DNA from: Archaeoglobus neptunius
GTDB taxonomy: Archaea; Halobacteriota; Archaeoglobi; Archaeoglobales; Archaeoglobaceae
NCBI RefSeq assembly: GCF_016757965.1
Contig: NZ_JAEKIW010000011.1
Coordinates: 1-64,000, forward strand
Length of the DNA: 64,000 nucleotides
Direction of reading: 5' to 3'
Positions 27,281-35,508 of this stretch are shown one piece after another. Within the stretch, counting starts at the first letter, position 1. Every line of letters starts with the position of its first letter. A program made the translations under genes and the position numbers. A model generated the notes under the pieces. It worked only from the letters and a program-made list of their open reading frames with translations, did no database searches and had not been told where the DNA came from.

Positions 27281-27711
27281 ACAGGCCCGGACACATTGGG
27301 GCTACACTCCTTCTCCTGTCCCCGTTTATCCCCAGAATTGGAACCGAATTTGTGGTGCTGGCCGCAGCCTTCTCCCTCCTGCCAGACATAGACATACTGC
27401 TGAGGGTTAAACACAGAGAGTACACCCACAACATCACATTCGGTGTGATAATGACGCTCACAGCCTTTTTCGCCTTCAAACACACGAAAATTCCTCCATT
27501 ACTATCCCTCGCAATTTTTACTGCTGTGATCATACACATTCTGGTCGATGCGTTAACAATGCAAAAATTCCCGCCATTCTATCCTTTTTCAAAGAAACGA
27601 GTGGCTTTTAGAGTATTCAGGAGTGATAATCCGGCTGTAAACGGAGCGTCATTTGTCCTCGGTTCACTTGCGTTCGTATACTTTGCGGGTGGTGGTTATG
27701 GCTGGTGGTGA
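27277..27711 (+). CDS. DUF457/YdjM-type membrane-bound putative metal-dependent hydrolase
   Basis: A 144-residue membrane protein with four hydrophobic segments and conserved polar positions (FSLLPDIDILLRVKHREYTH, then HILVDALTM), the D, H and D residues characteristic of the LexA-binding/YdjM (DUF457) group, thought to be metal-dependent hydrolases. The ATG at 27277 follows GGAGGTGGAA and overlaps the cysS stop. It overlaps the following gene by 14 bases. Confidence 0.8.
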   Translation: MNRPGHIGATLLLLSPFIPRIGTEFVVLAAAFSLLPDIDILLRVKHREYTHNITFGVIMTLTAFFAFKHTKIPPLLSLAIFTAVIIHILVDALTMQKFPPFYPFSKKRVAFRVFRSDNPAVNGASFVLGSLAFVYFAGGGYGWW

Positions 27712-28711
27712 AGGTGTTTTTACCCTTGATGTCGGATCGGGAACGCAGGATTTCATGTTCTTTGTAGAGGAGAACATCAGAAACTGCCCGAAGGCAATCC
27801 TTCCCTCGCCAACAAAAATGATTGCAAGAAGAATTGACGGAACTGAAGGGGATGTCTTTCTTCACGGTTACACGATGGGAGGTGGAGCGATAACCTTTGC
27901 AGTCAAGAGGCACCTTCAGAGATTCAGAGTTTACGCAACTGAAAGATCCGCCCTTACCTTCTCTGACGATCTCGATGAGGTGAGGAAAATGGGCGTGATC
28001 ATAGGGGAACCCGAAGGCGAGGTCGAGAAAATAGAGACGAAGGATGTGGATATGCCCTTCTTCTCCGAGTTCATATCAAAGATGGGATATGAGATGCCGG
28101 ATAAGTACGTAATAGCCGTCCAGGATCACGGATTTTCCCCCCGCATCAGCAACAGGATTTTCAGGTTCAGAATGTTCGAAACACTCCTGAAAAAAGATCC
28201 TGCAATGGAAAGCTTTCTCTTCGAGGCTTCGGAGGTGCCGAAGGAATTTAACAGGATGAGTGATGCTGTCAGGAGTGTGCTTGACTTCGTGGAGGGTGAA
28301 GTGTACGCTGTTGACACTGTCTTTGCAGCAATTGCAGGATGTGCATTATCTGTTAAAAAGTTTCCCGCCCTGATAGTAAATTTCGGAAACTCCCATACGA
28401 CGGCGGCAGTGGTGGACAGGAACTTCGAGATAAAGGCTCTGCTTGAACACCACACCTTCGTGCTTAAGAAAAAGGGTGCTGAATACATCCAGGATCTTCT
28501 GGAAAAATTTGTAAAAGGAGAAGTTGACAACGAATATATCCTGAGTGACAACGGACATGGCTGCTATATCAGTCAGGTCGTGGATATTGCCGATTATGTG
28601 TGTACAGGACCAAACGCGCATCTTTCCCCTTTCAGAGAGGTCGAGGGGGATCCGATGGTCGTCGGAAATTTGGGTATGATGCATCTGCTTAAAAGAAAAA
28701 TCAGCCACTGA
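27698..28711 (+). CDS. DUF1786 family protein (actin-like ATPase fold)
   Basis: A 337-residue archaeal protein. FTLDVGSGTQDFMFF near the start and ALIVNFGNSHTTAAVVD near residue 225 look like the phosphate-binding strands of the actin/Hsp70/sugar kinase fold. The family is sometimes labelled pyruvate formate-lyase activating enzyme-like, but it lacks a radical SAM CxxxCxxC motif, so I do not accept that label. The ATG at 27698 follows GGGTGGTGG; the longer frame to 27653 has no support. It overlaps the membrane protein gene before it. Confidence 0.7.
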   Translation: MAGGEGVFTLDVGSGTQDFMFFVEENIRNCPKAILPSPTKMIARRIDGTEGDVFLHGYTMGGGAITFAVKRHLQRFRVYATERSALTFSDDLDEVRKMGVIIGEPEGEVEKIETKDVDMPFFSEFISKMGYEMPDKYVIAVQDHGFSPRISNRIFRFRMFETLLKKDPAMESFLFEASEVPKEFNRMSDAVRSVLDFVEGEVYAVDTVFAAIAGCALSVKKFPALIVNFGNSHTTAAVVDRNFEIKALLEHHTFVLKKKGAEYIQDLLEKFVKGEVDNEYILSDNGHGCYISQVVDIADYVCTGPNAHLSPFREVEGDPMVVGNLGMMHLLKRKISH

Positions 28712-29096
28712 GCACTTTTTCACCTGAAGGCAGGGTGTACTCCTTTAACGCCCTACTCGTTAACCTGAATTTTACTCTTGATGCTGACTCGGCAAATCTG
28801 GAGAGTTTCTCTGCATCGAGGGTAACGACAATATCGTTTTCCCCTGCATCTTCTATCAGGAAATTCAGCTCAACTTCGATCTCAGAGAGCTCAAAGGTTG
28901 GTACAGAAAAGTGTTTCAACAGTTCATCCTTCTCGTACTCCTTCTTTATACTCGCAGCCTCAATATCGATTATCCTTTTTGCATTCAATGCCGCAAGAGC
29001 TATTCCCGAAGTCAGCGTCTTGAGTGTGAGTTTTGGTGGACCCTTCAGCTCCGGTTCCTTAACACTCCTTATACCCTTTCTGGGAGTTTTTCTCAT
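28701..29096 (-). CDS. Unknown protein, third member of the DUF2589-type cassette
   Basis: About 131 residues, not assigned to a named family. A basic opening (MRKTPRKGIRSVKEPELKG) leads to a helix (ALAALNAKRIIDIEAASIKK) and a strand segment (VPTFELSEIEVELNFLIEDA) that echo the helix and the PIPYI/strand segment of the two upstream proteins. The start at 29096 is chosen because GGAGGA lies ten bases upstream. It is the last gene of a three-gene leftward transcript and overlaps the convergent DUF1786 gene by 11 bases. Confidence 0.55.
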   Translation of the reverse strand: MRKTPRKGIRSVKEPELKGPPKLTLKTLTSGIALAALNAKRIIDIEAASIKKEYEKDELLKHFSVPTFELSEIEVELNFLIEDAGENDIVVTLDAEKLSRFAESASRVKFRLTSRALKEYTLPSGEKVLSG

Positions 29097-29101
29097 GGTT
29101 A

Positions 29102-29611
29102 TCACTCCTCCGCACTGATATTCTGGGAGTTCGCCAGCACCGTAATCATTCTTGCGATGCCCTCCGGTATGTCTGATCTTCTGGCTTTTATCTTTAAATG
29201 CAGTTCTCCACTCACATCCACTCTCGAAGTCAGCCTGCCTGCATATACTGCATAAATCGGAACAGCTCCTTTCTCAGCAGATGGTCCTGCTGCCACAACC
29301 TTTGCATCAAACTCGATTTCCGCCTCATCAACACTGATATATGGTATGGGGACAAGGGTAACTAACGGAACGCCGATTCTCTGCTCAACCTGCTTCACTT
29401 TTCCGGAATCAGGGTCAAGAAATGCCTGCTGATAGGCCACTACCACAGACTTCGGTACGACCTTTTCTCCGTCCTCTTCCATCAGGCTGAAAAGAAAATT
29501 TACTGTGGCTTTTGCCGACTCACTCTGAGCATCAACCACTGCCTTCAATGGTGACGCTATTATCTGCTCCAGCAGCAGGGCAAAGTTGGCGGACAACAAA
29601 GTCCTCACCAA
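29102..29611 (-). CDS. DUF2589-like protein, second member of the cassette
   Basis: A 169-residue protein paralogous to its upstream neighbour. Shared parts in order are an alanine-rich helix (SPLKAVVDAQSESAKATVNF), a hairpin (FLDPDSGK), the segment PLVTLVPIPYISVDEAEIEF, and a closing strand-helix (DIPEGIARMITVL). These match the DUF2589 pattern, a family of unknown function. The start is TTG at 29611 or GTG at 29608. It lies ten bases after the upstream gene. Confidence 0.65.
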   Translation of the reverse strand: MVRTLLSANFALLLEQIIASPLKAVVDAQSESAKATVNFLFSLMEEDGEKVVPKSVVVAYQQAFLDPDSGKVKQVEQRIGVPLVTLVPIPYISVDEAEIEFDAKVVAAGPSAEKGAVPIYAVYAGRLTSRVDVSGELHLKIKARRSDIPEGIARMITVLANSQNISAEE

Positions 29612-29621
29612 AGCAGCTATC

Positions 29622-30191
29622 TTAGCCTGAACCTGAAGCAGATGAGGCTGGTGCTATACTTTCCTTCAACAAACTGAGAAGCGTTCTCAACCCCTCCGGC
29701 ATTTCATCCTGGACAGCATTTACTGTGATATCAAGTTCAGAACTTCTGTCCACCTGAGATCTGGATTCTTTCTTAAACCCGTAGGAGGCTGTTAGCTTTA
29801 CACTTCCCCATCCCCACCCAGCTTTAGCTGTTAGCTGGCTTGAGAAGTCGTGTGATGTTTTATCCTGCGCTGCCGTTTTTATCGTAAAGTTGAAATGAAT
29901 TGTCATGTCCTTGATTCTGATGAATGGGACTGGTAGAATTGCAAGTAGTGGCGCCTCAACCGTGGTGTCCGTTTCAACGATGTCTCCCGTATCCGGATCA
30001 AGTTCCTTTCTTTTGAACTTGAAGGTTACAGACCTAACGTTTCCGTCTTCATCAAGGCCTACTTCCTGCACAAACCTTGCCGTGGTCATAGCGGCATAGG
30101 CCTGAGCCTTTACCGCTGCCTCCAGTGGTTTGCCAATCAAACTCTCAATTGGCAGAGCTGCGAGCTCTGCAGGTATATTTGCACCCACCAT
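29622..30191 (-). CDS. DUF2589 family protein, first member of the cassette
   Basis: A 189-residue soluble protein. The helix SLIGKPLEAAVKAQAYAAMT, the hairpin ELDPDTGDIVE, the conserved segment PLLAILPVPFIRIKDMTIHF and the closing EMPEGLRTLLSLL match DUF2589, for which no function is known. No signal peptide, membrane segment or catalytic motif is seen; the alternating strands suggest a structural or self-assembling protein, which is inference. AAAGGTGG lies before the ATG and a TATA-like ATTTAAATATA around 30234-30247. Confidence 0.75.
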   Translation of the reverse strand: MVGANIPAELAALPIESLIGKPLEAAVKAQAYAAMTTARFVQEVGLDEDGNVRSVTFKFKRKELDPDTGDIVETDTTVEAPLLAILPVPFIRIKDMTIHFNFTIKTAAQDKTSHDFSSQLTAKAGWGWGSVKLTASYGFKKESRSQVDRSSELDITVNAVQDEMPEGLRTLLSLLKESIAPASSASGSG

Positions 30192-30258
30192 TTAAACCAC
30201 CTTTTTGAATTAGATTGCAAATTGCTGTCAACTAGTCTATATTTAAATTTTTCTAATT

Positions 30259-30798
30259 TTACTCGAAACTTTTCAAAATTCTCCGCCTGATTATCTCAAA
30301 ATTTTTACGGTTTATCTCAAATTTATACCTTCTTATCAAATTTTTTTCAAGTTTTATTCCAAATTTTTTCAGATATACAGTGAACTGGGTAAGGTTGGAA
30401 GGTCTTTTCTTCAATCTGGCTCTCTCAAAATCGATGAAGTACACGCCCCCATCCACAATTATGTGCTTACCTGGGTGGTTCATTTCCTGTTTCTCAATTC
30501 CGAGCACGTCCAGAATAAAGCAGCACTCAAGGCATCGATCCACCACTTTTCGTCCGATACACTCTCCTATTCTCCTCCCCCCAAGACGCTGCATTGTTAC
30601 TTTCAGGCCGTCAAAGTCCACGAAATAGAGCTCGGGAACAAAGCCAAAAGGTTGCAGGAGCGTCAAAAATTTGACCTCTTTAAGAAAATTGTACCGGTAT
30701 TTCTCCTCAAAAACCTTAACGGCATAGGTGTCAAAAAGATAAACCACGGAGTGTTTACCCTTTCGCAATTCTGACAATTTTGGACACCCTGTCCGCAT
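30259..30798 (-). CDS. Small RIO/Bud32-like protein kinase
   Basis: An atypical kinase of about 179 residues. KGKHSVVYLF gives a glycine-poor P-loop, TYAVKVFEEKYR the ATP-binding lysine, NHPGKHIIVDGGVYFIDFER combines the catalytic loop (asparagine and histidine variant) and the DFE metal motif. The C-terminal basic stretch is helical. Target is unknown. The ATG at 30798 follows GGGAGAG; the frame extends further to 30813. It overlaps btpA by 44 bases, in a leftward operon with btpA, a DUF504 gene and an ArsR-like regulator. Confidence 0.75.
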   Translation of the reverse strand: MRTGCPKLSELRKGKHSVVYLFDTYAVKVFEEKYRYNFLKEVKFLTLLQPFGFVPELYFVDFDGLKVTMQRLGGRRIGECIGRKVVDRCLECCFILDVLGIEKQEMNHPGKHIIVDGGVYFIDFERARLKKRPSNLTQFTVYLKKFGIKLEKNLIRRYKFEINRKNFEIIRRRILKSFE

Positions 30799-31495
30799 CG
30801 ACTCTCCCGCCATTCTTGATATAGCTCCCGACTATCACCCCATCACAAAACCTGAGGATCCTGCTGGCGTTTTCTGCATTCACCCCACTGCCAGCAAGAA
30901 CAGGCATTTTGACAGATTCCTTAACCAGTTTCAGATCGTTCAGATCTATTTCCCTTCCAGTTGCCTTTCCAGTGACGATCAGGGCATCTGCAAGACTCCT
31001 CTCGGCATTGATGCAGTAGTCCTCAAGAGGGACCGTGTGGACAGCATGTTTCACGGCAACATCTGCAAAAATCATTGCTCTGCAGTCTATCATCCTTTTA
31101 TACCTCATAATTCCGCCACAATCACCTTCAAGAATGCCTTCAGGGGAAATCGATGAGAAGAATAACTGGTTCACCCTGACAAAGTCTGCATTTACAGCCT
31201 TTGCTACCGCAAGAGCAGCAACTGCATCATTTCTCAAAACATTGATCCCGAGACCTATCGACACATCCTTTTTGACCTCACAGGCTATTGCACTCATCGC
31301 CGCCACAACTTCCTTTCCAACCTCTTTAACGAACGGTTTATCTCCGTAATTTTCAAGAATGAGCGCATCTGCTCCCCCCTCCTCAACAGCCCGGGCATCG
31401 ATCAAAGCCTTTTCGATAACCTCTTCCAGATCGGTGAACTCCGGAGATCCGGGAAGGGGGAGAAGGTGAACAACACCGATTACCGCCTTTTCCAT
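30755..31495 (-). CDS. btpA: BtpA family protein
   Basis: A 246-residue TIM-barrel protein. GVVHLLPLPGSPEF at the start, ALILENYGDKPF, GLGINVLRNDAVAAL and VLAGSGVNAENASRIL are the family landmarks. In cyanobacteria BtpA affects photosystem I, but archaeal members have another, unproven role, probably a phosphate-sugar or nucleoside enzyme judging from the fold. It overlaps the DUF504 gene upstream by 16 bases. Confidence 0.85.
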   Translation of the reverse strand: MEKAVIGVVHLLPLPGSPEFTDLEEVIEKALIDARAVEEGGADALILENYGDKPFVKEVGKEVVAAMSAIACEVKKDVSIGLGINVLRNDAVAALAVAKAVNADFVRVNQLFFSSISPEGILEGDCGGIMRYKRMIDCRAMIFADVAVKHAVHTVPLEDYCINAERSLADALIVTGKATGREIDLNDLKLVKESVKMPVLAGSGVNAENASRILRFCDGVIVGSYIKNGGRVDADRVSKIVRIAKG

Positions 31496-33100: not shown

Positions 33101-33146
33101 CTTATATATTGTTTCAAAAGACTGCTGTTTGGATTATAGGAGGTGA
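33101..33146 (+). promoter_or_regulatory. dsrA promoter and ribosome-binding site
   Basis: A TATA box (CTTATATATT, 33101-33110) lies about 40 bases before the dsrA start, and GGAGGTGA at 33139-33146 is correctly spaced for ATG 33151. An in-frame ATG at 33109 falls in the TATA box itself and is rejected. Confidence 0.7.
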
Positions 33147-33150
33147 AGTA

Positions 33151-34407
33151 ATGTCAGAAACTCCTTTGCTTGATGAGTTGGAAAAAGGGCCTTGGCCAAG
33201 TTTTGTAAAGGAAATAAAGAAGACGGCAGAGATGATAGAAAAAGCTGCTGCTGAGGGCAAGGATGTAAAGATGCCAAAAGGAGCAAGCGGGCTGCTCAAA
33301 CAGCTTGAAATCTCATACAAGGACAAGAAGACCCACTGGAAACATGGAGGTATCGTATCAGTTGTGGGTTACGGTGGTGGAGTCATCGGAAGGTATTCCG
33401 ACCTCGGCGAACAGATACCTGAGGTCGAGCACTTCCACACAATGCGTATAAATCAGCCATCCGGATGGTTCTACTCAACCAAAGCTCTCAGAGGCCTGTG
33501 TGACGTATGGGAGAAGTGGGGAAGCGGTGTCACGAATTTCCATGGATCGACTGGAGACATAATCTTCCTCGGAACCAGGAGTGAATACCTGCAGCCCTGC
33601 TTTGAAGACCTCGGTAAACTTGAGATTCCATTCGACATTGGAGGCAGTGGATCAGACCTCAGAACCCCATCAGCCTGCATGGGTCCTGCTCTCTGTGAAT
33701 TTGCATGCTACGACACTCTGGAACTCTGCTATGACCTCACAATGGCATATCAGGACGAGCTCCACAGGCCAATGTGGCCGTATAAATTCAAGATAAAGTG
33801 CTCAGGCTGTCCGAACGATTGTGTAGCTGCAAAGGCAAGATCAGACTTTGCGATTATCGGAACATGGAAAGATGAAATTAAGATCGATCAGGAGGCTGTG
33901 AAAGAGTACGCCCAGTGGATGGACATTGAAAACGAGATCGTAAAGCTCTGTCCCACGGGAGCGATCAAGTGGGATGGCAAGGAGCTTACAATCGACAACA
34001 AGAACTGTGTCAGATGTATGCACTGTATAAACAAGATGCCCAAAGCTCTCAAACCAGGAGACGAGAGGGGAGCCACAGTCCTCATAGGCGGTAAAGCACC
34101 GTTCGTTGAAGGAGCCGTTATAGGATGGGTGGCAATTCCATTCATTGAGGTTAAAAAACCATACGACGAAATAAAAGAGATTCTTGAGGCAATCTGGGAC
34201 TGGTGGGACGAAGAGGGCAAGTTCAGAGAGAGAGTTGGAGAGATGATATGGAGAAAGGGAATGAAGGAGTTCCTCAAGGTAATCGGCAAGGATGCAGATG
34301 TCAGGATGGTCAAGGCACCCAGAAACAACCCGTTCATGTTCTTCGAGCAGGAGGAATTGAAGCATTCAGCGTATATTGAAGAGTTGAAAAAGAGGGGGTT
34401 GTTCTAA
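33151..34407 (+). CDS. dsrA: Dissimilatory sulfite reductase alpha subunit
   Basis: Catalytic partner of DsrB in the reduction of sulfite to sulfide during sulfate respiration, a cytoplasmic siroheme and iron-sulfur enzyme. The 418-residue protein ([20 protein letters not shown] onwards) is nearly identical to the A. fulgidus subunit as I recall it. The siroheme-coupled cluster cysteines lie in [13 protein letters not shown] and KCSGCPNDC, and an inserted ferredoxin domain has CVRCMHC with an upstream LCPTGAI. dsrB starts at the next base after the stop. Confidence 0.98.
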
Positions 34408-35508
34408 ATGGTAGTTGAAGGTGTTAAAACGGATTTTGGTCCACCATACTACAAGGACCTGCTCCACCCGGTTATTGCCAAAAACTACGGTAAGTGGAAG
34501 TATCACGAGGTTGTGAAGCCAGGAGTCATCAAGAGAGTTGCCGAAAGCGGAGATACGATATATGTTGTAAGATTTGGAACCCCCAGATTGCTCAGCATCT
34601 ACACCGTCAGAGAGCTTTGTGATATCGCCGACAAATACTCAGACGGCTACCTCAGATGGACAAGCAGAAACAACGTGGAGTTTTTCGTTACAGACGAGAG
34701 CAAGATTGACGACCTGATAAACGAAGTTCAGGAAAAGGTCGGATTCCCATGCGGCGGTACCTGGGACGCTTCAAAGGGAGAATACGGACTTACAAACATC
34801 GTCCACACCCAGGGCTGGATACACTGCCACACTCCGGCTATTGACGCTTCCGGTATCGTCAAAGCCGTGATGGACGAGCTGTACGAGTACTTCACAGAAC
34901 ACAAGCTCCCCGCACTCTGCAGAATCAGCCTTGCATGCTGCGCAAACATGTGTGGAGCCGTCCATGCCTCAGATATCGCTATCGTCGGAATCCACAGAAC
35001 CCCGCCCATGCCTGACGACGATGCCATCAGGAGAACGTGTGAGATTCCCTCCACAGTTGCAGCATGCCCAACAGGAGCTCTCAAGCCAGATATGAAGAAC
35101 AAGACAATCAAGGTTGACGTTGAGAAGTGCATGTACTGCGGTAACTGCTACACAATGTGTCCTGGAATGCCGCTGTTCGACCCAGAAAACGATGGTGCCG
35201 CAATAATGGTCGGTGGAAAGCTCTCTGATGCAAGGAGGGCACCTGAGCTGTCCAAGGTCGTTGTGCCATGGGTTCCAAATGAACCGCCAAGATGGCCAAC
35301 CCTCGTCAAGTACGTCAAGCAGATCTTAGAAGCATGGGCAGCAAATGCTAACAAGCACGAGAGGCTCATTGAGTGGGTGGACAGAATTGGCTGGGAGAGA
35401 TTCTTTGAGATCACCGGACTTGAGTTCACGCAGCACCTGATCGACGACTACAGAATTACACCGTACTTCTACAGCGAGTTCAGAGCATCGACACAGTTCA
35501 GATGGTAG
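34408..35508 (+). CDS. dsrB: Dissimilatory sulfite reductase beta subunit
   Basis: Forms the alpha2beta2 sulfite reductase with DsrA. Cluster ligands appear in [10 protein letters not shown] near residue 170, and a ferredoxin domain in [18 protein letters not shown] near residue 235. The 366-residue length is typical. The start codon abuts the dsrA stop with a ribosome-binding site inside dsrA (AAAGAGGGGG), so the subunits are made together. A T-run at 35531-35537 may end part of the transcript before dsrD. Confidence 0.98.

Follow-up and report, generated by a model that had tools for sequence, protein, structure and literature searches.

A three-gene locus encoding two DUF2589 proteins and a shortened relative

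The window analyzed here, a stretch of 64,000 nt of Archaeoglobus neptunius DNA taken as a whole, carries three genes, designated A, B, and C, which are closely packed on the minus strand within positions 28701-30191 (Table 1). A preliminary description of this DNA had placed three same-strand genes at this position, with gaps of about 10 bases or less. The genes are indeed co-oriented at those coordinates, and B and C overlap by 4 nt. The A-B gap is 10 nt if B begins at its first possible start (TTG at 29611, giving a protein of 169 aa), but it is 25 nt, wider than described, if B begins at the TTG at 29596. We favor the latter as the probable start because of the starts of its relatives and a GGTGAGG ribosome site at 29603-29609. 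TATA-like and GGTGG/GGAGGTG elements precede A in most relatives. C and the convergent DUF1786 gene share 11 nt at their ends, and dsrAB lie at 33109-35508, about 3 kb from the trio.

Table 1. Features of the A-B-C locus and its borders in the window
Feature	Position	Strand	Description	Basis
Gene A	29622-30191	minus	Full-length DUF2589 protein, 189 aa	PF11655, E 1.3e-44
Gene B	29102-29596 (probable start)	minus	Second, shorter DUF2589 protein, 164 aa	PF11655, E 1.7e-21
Gene C	28701-29105	minus	Shortened relative, 134 aa	Profile match to A; no Pfam entry
Promoter/leader of A	30192-30258	minus	AT-rich, TATA-like TTTAAATA and GGTGG ribosome site	Read from sequence
DUF1786 gene	27653-28711	plus	Convergent flank, one edge of the insertion site	PF08735, E 9.6e-77
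Kinase-like gene	30259-30813	minus	Other edge of the insertion site	Weak Bud32/APH similarity

Membership in DUF2589 was judged by the curated gathering score of PF11655 (23 bits), attained across the profile. Both A (152.7 bits, profile positions 1-154) and B (77.6 bits, positions 2-153) lie above it. The two proteins are 28% identical over 170 residues (E 3e-22), and their profiles match each other with a probability of 99.5%. Both combine a beta domain with a long Ala-rich helix and a closing helix, and the motifs said to be common to them (DPDTG/DPDSG, PVPFI/PIPYI, and MPEG/IPEG) were all found. The DPD hairpin is not family-wide, as it is missing from the invariant columns once bacterial sequences are included, and those columns show no enzyme-like residue pattern. 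A additionally has a C-terminal tail rich in Gly and Ser and a hairpin insert (GWGWG) that is missing in B.

C combines an Ala-rich helix and a P-x-F strand with a basic N-terminal extension. It matched no Pfam or NCBIfam entry, and the NCBIfam search of the trio as a whole gave no match either. A profile of C, built from 18 archaeal and bacterial sequences, aligned with that of A along the helix and P-x-F-I strand at a score of 33.3, compared with 17.6 for the best of 150 column shuffles and 12.7 for the reversed profile; against B alone there was no significant match. As the score exceeds that of every shuffled control, we count C as a relative of A: judged by its profile, it is a shortened, distant one that lies outside Pfam. 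The earlier view that C shares a shortened helix and strand segment is thus borne out with respect to A. Other archaea, as well as gut contigs, have homologues of C beside A.

Recurrence and mobility of the trio in Archaeoglobaceae

DUF2589 is present in 13 of 55 Archaeoglobaceae genomes. Recurrence of the trio in other genomes had been set beforehand as a test of the proposal that the three paralogues are subunits of one assembly; the order A-B-C is kept in all 12 Archaeoglobaceae genomes in which the contig is long enough to hold a complete locus. In the 11 genomes measured, intergenic spacing ranges from a 14-nt overlap to 60 nt. A is the most conserved member (73 to 97% identity; mean, 80%), followed by B (mean, 59%) and C (mean, 51%). 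The interspecies distances of A, B, and C correlate across these 11 genomes (Mantel r of 0.80, 0.71, and 0.82, with at most 2 of 5,000 permutations as high as observed), although the shared ancestry of the genomes would by itself produce part of this correlation, with or without interaction. Recurrence as a unit, together with the correlated distances, fits the proposal.

The genes flanking the trio are common to only a few small groups of genomes, which indicates that it occupies several unrelated chromosomal sites. In the window, it is placed exactly between the kinase-like gene and the DUF1786 gene. In two congeners devoid of DUF2589, these two genes directly abut or overlap. Given this clean empty site and the several different chromosomal sites, the trio is a portable, discrete accessory cassette and not part of the dsr region. 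No conserved cargo gene adjoins the trio in the Archaeoglobaceae loci compared, and no virus genes surround it in the window.

In the twelfth genome with a complete locus, G005, which is probably A. fulgidus, A and C are intact and B is split over three reading frames (L036, 7517-7973); these frame breaks may reflect decay or old sequencing errors. Short DUF2589-related genes of A. fulgidus, AF0414-AF0417, have been reported to be upregulated with lactate, with no function given (PMC3949148). The interruption of B by frameshifts accounts for the annotation of four genes there.

Distribution in other archaea, bacteria, and tailed phages

Across the phylum, the DUF2589 family was found in 24 of 393 genomes. 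In haloarchaea, whose loci are of the A-B-C type, A is accompanied by a second DUF2589 protein, by a C-like protein containing helix-hairpin-helix domains, and by a fourth, small gene. When one such C protein was scanned (L067, 10546-11571), its C-terminal part was found to carry the helix-hairpin-helix domain PF14520, and the protein encoded at L068 10829-11716 resembles it. Domains of this type usually bind nucleic acids. In two other archaeal families, A is found with a longer C and, in some cases, with a helical 190-aa protein (E). Upstream of one such A-C-E cassette, genome G053 encodes a 2,395-aa protein with subtilase, NosD/beta-helix, and Kelch repeat regions (L045, 6-7193). In two archaeal genomes from other families, DUF2589 matches span only about 30 residues (L069 in G237; L070 9163-9489 in G370) and look like remnants or divergent single genes.

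Bacterial loci were drawn from plasmid, phage, and viral collections. The order is A, C, B on a gut contig and a Bacteroidota-like contig, and it is B, A, and a conserved 90-aa protein on Vibrio plasmids, a deltaproteobacterial plasmid, and one contig of a viral collection. Just 3' of the latter cassette, Vibrio tubiashii has a gene for a Mor-type (Mu-like) transcription activator (L031, 9416-9835), a hint of a further phage link. A Streptomyces plasmid (L034, 7820-9753) carries A-like and B-like DUF2589 genes, the former apparently in pieces. E. coli genomes gave no match. Throughout, complete A genes are accompanied by B, C, or both, and A occurs partnerless only as fragments.

Burkholderia-like A genes were found on nine viral contigs. 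The A profile itself gave no match on viral contigs, and the phage copies were recovered by clade-specific queries only. Where the region is present, the gene order is a coiled-coil protein with a hydrophobic C-terminal segment (hydropathy, 2.13), A, B, an optional NlpC-like protein, and a 117-aa protein, followed by portal (PF04860), probable protease, and capsid (PF05065) genes. The NlpC-like neighbor was assigned by motif reading, has no Pfam match, and is dispensable among the phage relatives. A and/or B precede the portal gene in every phage relative with that region on its contig; C was not found in the phages seen. One 56-kb contig also encodes sheath, gp19 tube, tail, gp5-like, gp25, and baseplate J proteins and thus belongs to a contractile-tailed phage. 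In a phylogenetic tree, A and B separate for the most part, with moderate support for the split (84/65), into groups that include archaeal, bacterial, and phage sequences. Only the second haloarchaeal protein breaks this pattern, being placed within A. The A proteins of Burkholderia and of phages cluster together with a support of 100/100.

Peptidoglycan hydrolases near bacterial DUF2589 genes

Peptidoglycan hydrolases of three unrelated families (GH24, GH108, and PF11860) were found at four of eight bacterial or plasmid loci. A GH24 lysozyme gene overlaps B in Burkholderia stagnalis, a GH108 enzyme gene overlaps B on contig L074, and PF11860 muramidases are encoded near the DUF2589 genes of L033 and L035. 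None of the three families was detected in 20 archaeal DUF2589 loci (348 kb), which fits hosts lacking peptidoglycan. We regard the link between hydrolases and DUF2589 as suggestive, since two of the four loci come from viral or phage collections, in which lysozymes are common. The 19-residue hydropathy of A, B, and C peaks at 1.1 to 1.4, so that none has a membrane segment like those of holins or spanins.

Structural models and codon adaptation

AlphaFold modeled A from 12 A sequences with a pTM of 0.38 and B from a joint A and B alignment of 18 sequences with a pTM of 0.54 (pLDDT, 71.6). The B model predicts a helix at residues 13-41, about eight strands, and a closing helix at 149-160. A sequence search of solved structures returned nothing for A, B, or C. 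Foldseek gave no significant match in the PDB with these models, which are of low to medium confidence; names of OB-type single-strand-binding folds (E of at least 0.5) and of injection-system baseplates (E of at least 0.38) were set aside. In BFVD, there were two significant matches to predicted viral structures, both nameless. The codon adaptation of A, B, and C is average (ranks 29 to 38 of 63 in the window), and very high expression as a sign of structural proteins was rejected on this basis.

A possible role of the trio at the envelope

Paralogy, co-inheritance, portability, and the phage and hydrolase neighborhoods are the observations from which our model starts. Three paralogues that are inherited together, and rarely if ever alone, are most simply explained as one hetero-oligomer. 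The phage and hydrolase neighborhoods, in turn, suggest, less firmly, a virus-associated role. We therefore propose, with a probability of roughly 40%, that the trio forms a virus-associated hetero-oligomer of A, B, and C that acts at the envelope during release or exit. Co-assembly is the better supported part of this proposal; the envelope or exit role is the weaker. According to our model, A, B, and C would be subunits of one soluble, cytoplasmic complex, assembling through their N-terminal helices and beta domains. C, which lacks all but the helix and the first strand segment, could serve as a cap or adaptor. The work of the complex at the envelope would, in bacteria, involve a peptidoglycan hydrolase; in tailed phages, it would be encoded with the membrane-anchored coiled-coil protein and the head genes; and in archaea without peptidoglycan, the hydrolase would be absent. 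Several findings count against an envelope or exit role, namely, the lack of hydrolases at four of the eight bacterial loci, the dispensability of the NlpC-like neighbor in phages, the lack of a transmembrane segment in A, B, and C, the unexceptional amphipathicity of the A hairpin, and the lack of virus genes at the window locus. Moreover, the proximity of hydrolases may be incidental, as lysozymes are common in phage-derived DNA.

The strongest competitor, which we consider less probable, is that A and B are components of the virion or of head assembly in tailed phages (neck, scaffold, or head completion) that were later domesticated as an accessory cassette with an unrelated cellular use. 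If so, one would expect what is seen, namely, A and/or B directly 5' of the portal, protease, and capsid genes wherever a phage relative has that region, and a firm grouping of Burkholderia A with phage A. However, none of the cellular copies is located in a cluster of virion genes, C was not found in the phages seen, and no PHROG structural family matches A or B. Returning to the envelope model, its broadest form would make A, B, and C a previously unrecognized envelope or exit hetero-oligomer common to archaea, bacteria, and contractile-tailed phages. It would recruit unrelated peptidoglycan hydrolases in walled hosts and need none in archaea. In this breadth the model is unlikely.

Slightly less likely still is a large, storage-type assembly, be it a filament, a shell, or another form. 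The preliminary description had suggested that the three paralogues are subunits of one assembly, for example, a filament or shell. The general idea fits the co-inheritance and the restriction of partnerless A to fragments; nothing specific speaks for the example. Three co-inherited paralogues of unequal length encoded together, their alanine-rich helices, and the absence of an enzyme-like pattern among the invariant columns would suit such an assembly, but neither a related solved structure nor a fold match to filament or shell proteins was found with our low- to medium-confidence models, codon adaptation is ordinary, and no conserved cargo gene adjoins the trio.

We find it more doubtful again that the trio is a defense or abortive-infection module in which A would insert a beta hairpin as a membrane-active pore, with B and C as regulators. 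The patchy distribution, precise insertion or loss, and varied sites are in keeping with such a module. So is the A-specific GWGWG hairpin, whose alternating pattern recurs in archaea, Vibrio, and phage and is suggestive when compared with shuffled sequences. Yet its amphipathicity is unexceptional, since 4 to 21% of same-length protein windows in the 64-kb proteome are as strong, and a membrane-pore hairpin was rejected on this ground. Furthermore, no PADLOC model matched the trio at E values up to 1, and phages themselves carry A-B. A role in sulfate or lactate energy metabolism, to which the lactate response of AF0414-AF0417 (PMC3949148) and the nearby dsrAB might point, is very improbable and is largely refuted by distribution: the trio lies elsewhere in other species, congeners with the same locus lack it, and homologues occur in haloarchaea, Vibrio, and phages.

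Comparison with known systems

Phage lysis cassettes, which pair an endolysin with a membrane partner, may be compared with the bacterial DUF2589 loci, four of eight of which have a phage-type lysozyme or muramidase gene, in two cases overlapping B. They differ in that no member of the trio has a transmembrane segment or matches a holin or spanin family, and in that no hydrolase was detected with the archaeal DUF2589 copies. AF0414-AF0417 of A. fulgidus represent the same locus as the one studied here, as judged from gene number, DUF2589 content, and placement relative to dsrAB; B is frameshifted in the genome that is probably A. fulgidus, whereas all three genes are intact in the window. With respect to DUF2589 (PF11655), A and B are clear full-length members above the gathering score, whereas C, a shortened relative, falls outside Pfam. 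PMC3949148, the one paper found to name DUF2589, does not describe the three-gene organization, the spread, or the phage and hydrolase neighborhoods. Until now, DUF2589 has been a function-less label with almost no literature; a recurring, mobile A-B-C system near phage head genes and wall-cutting enzymes gives rise to testable ideas about assembly, presence in virions, and release.
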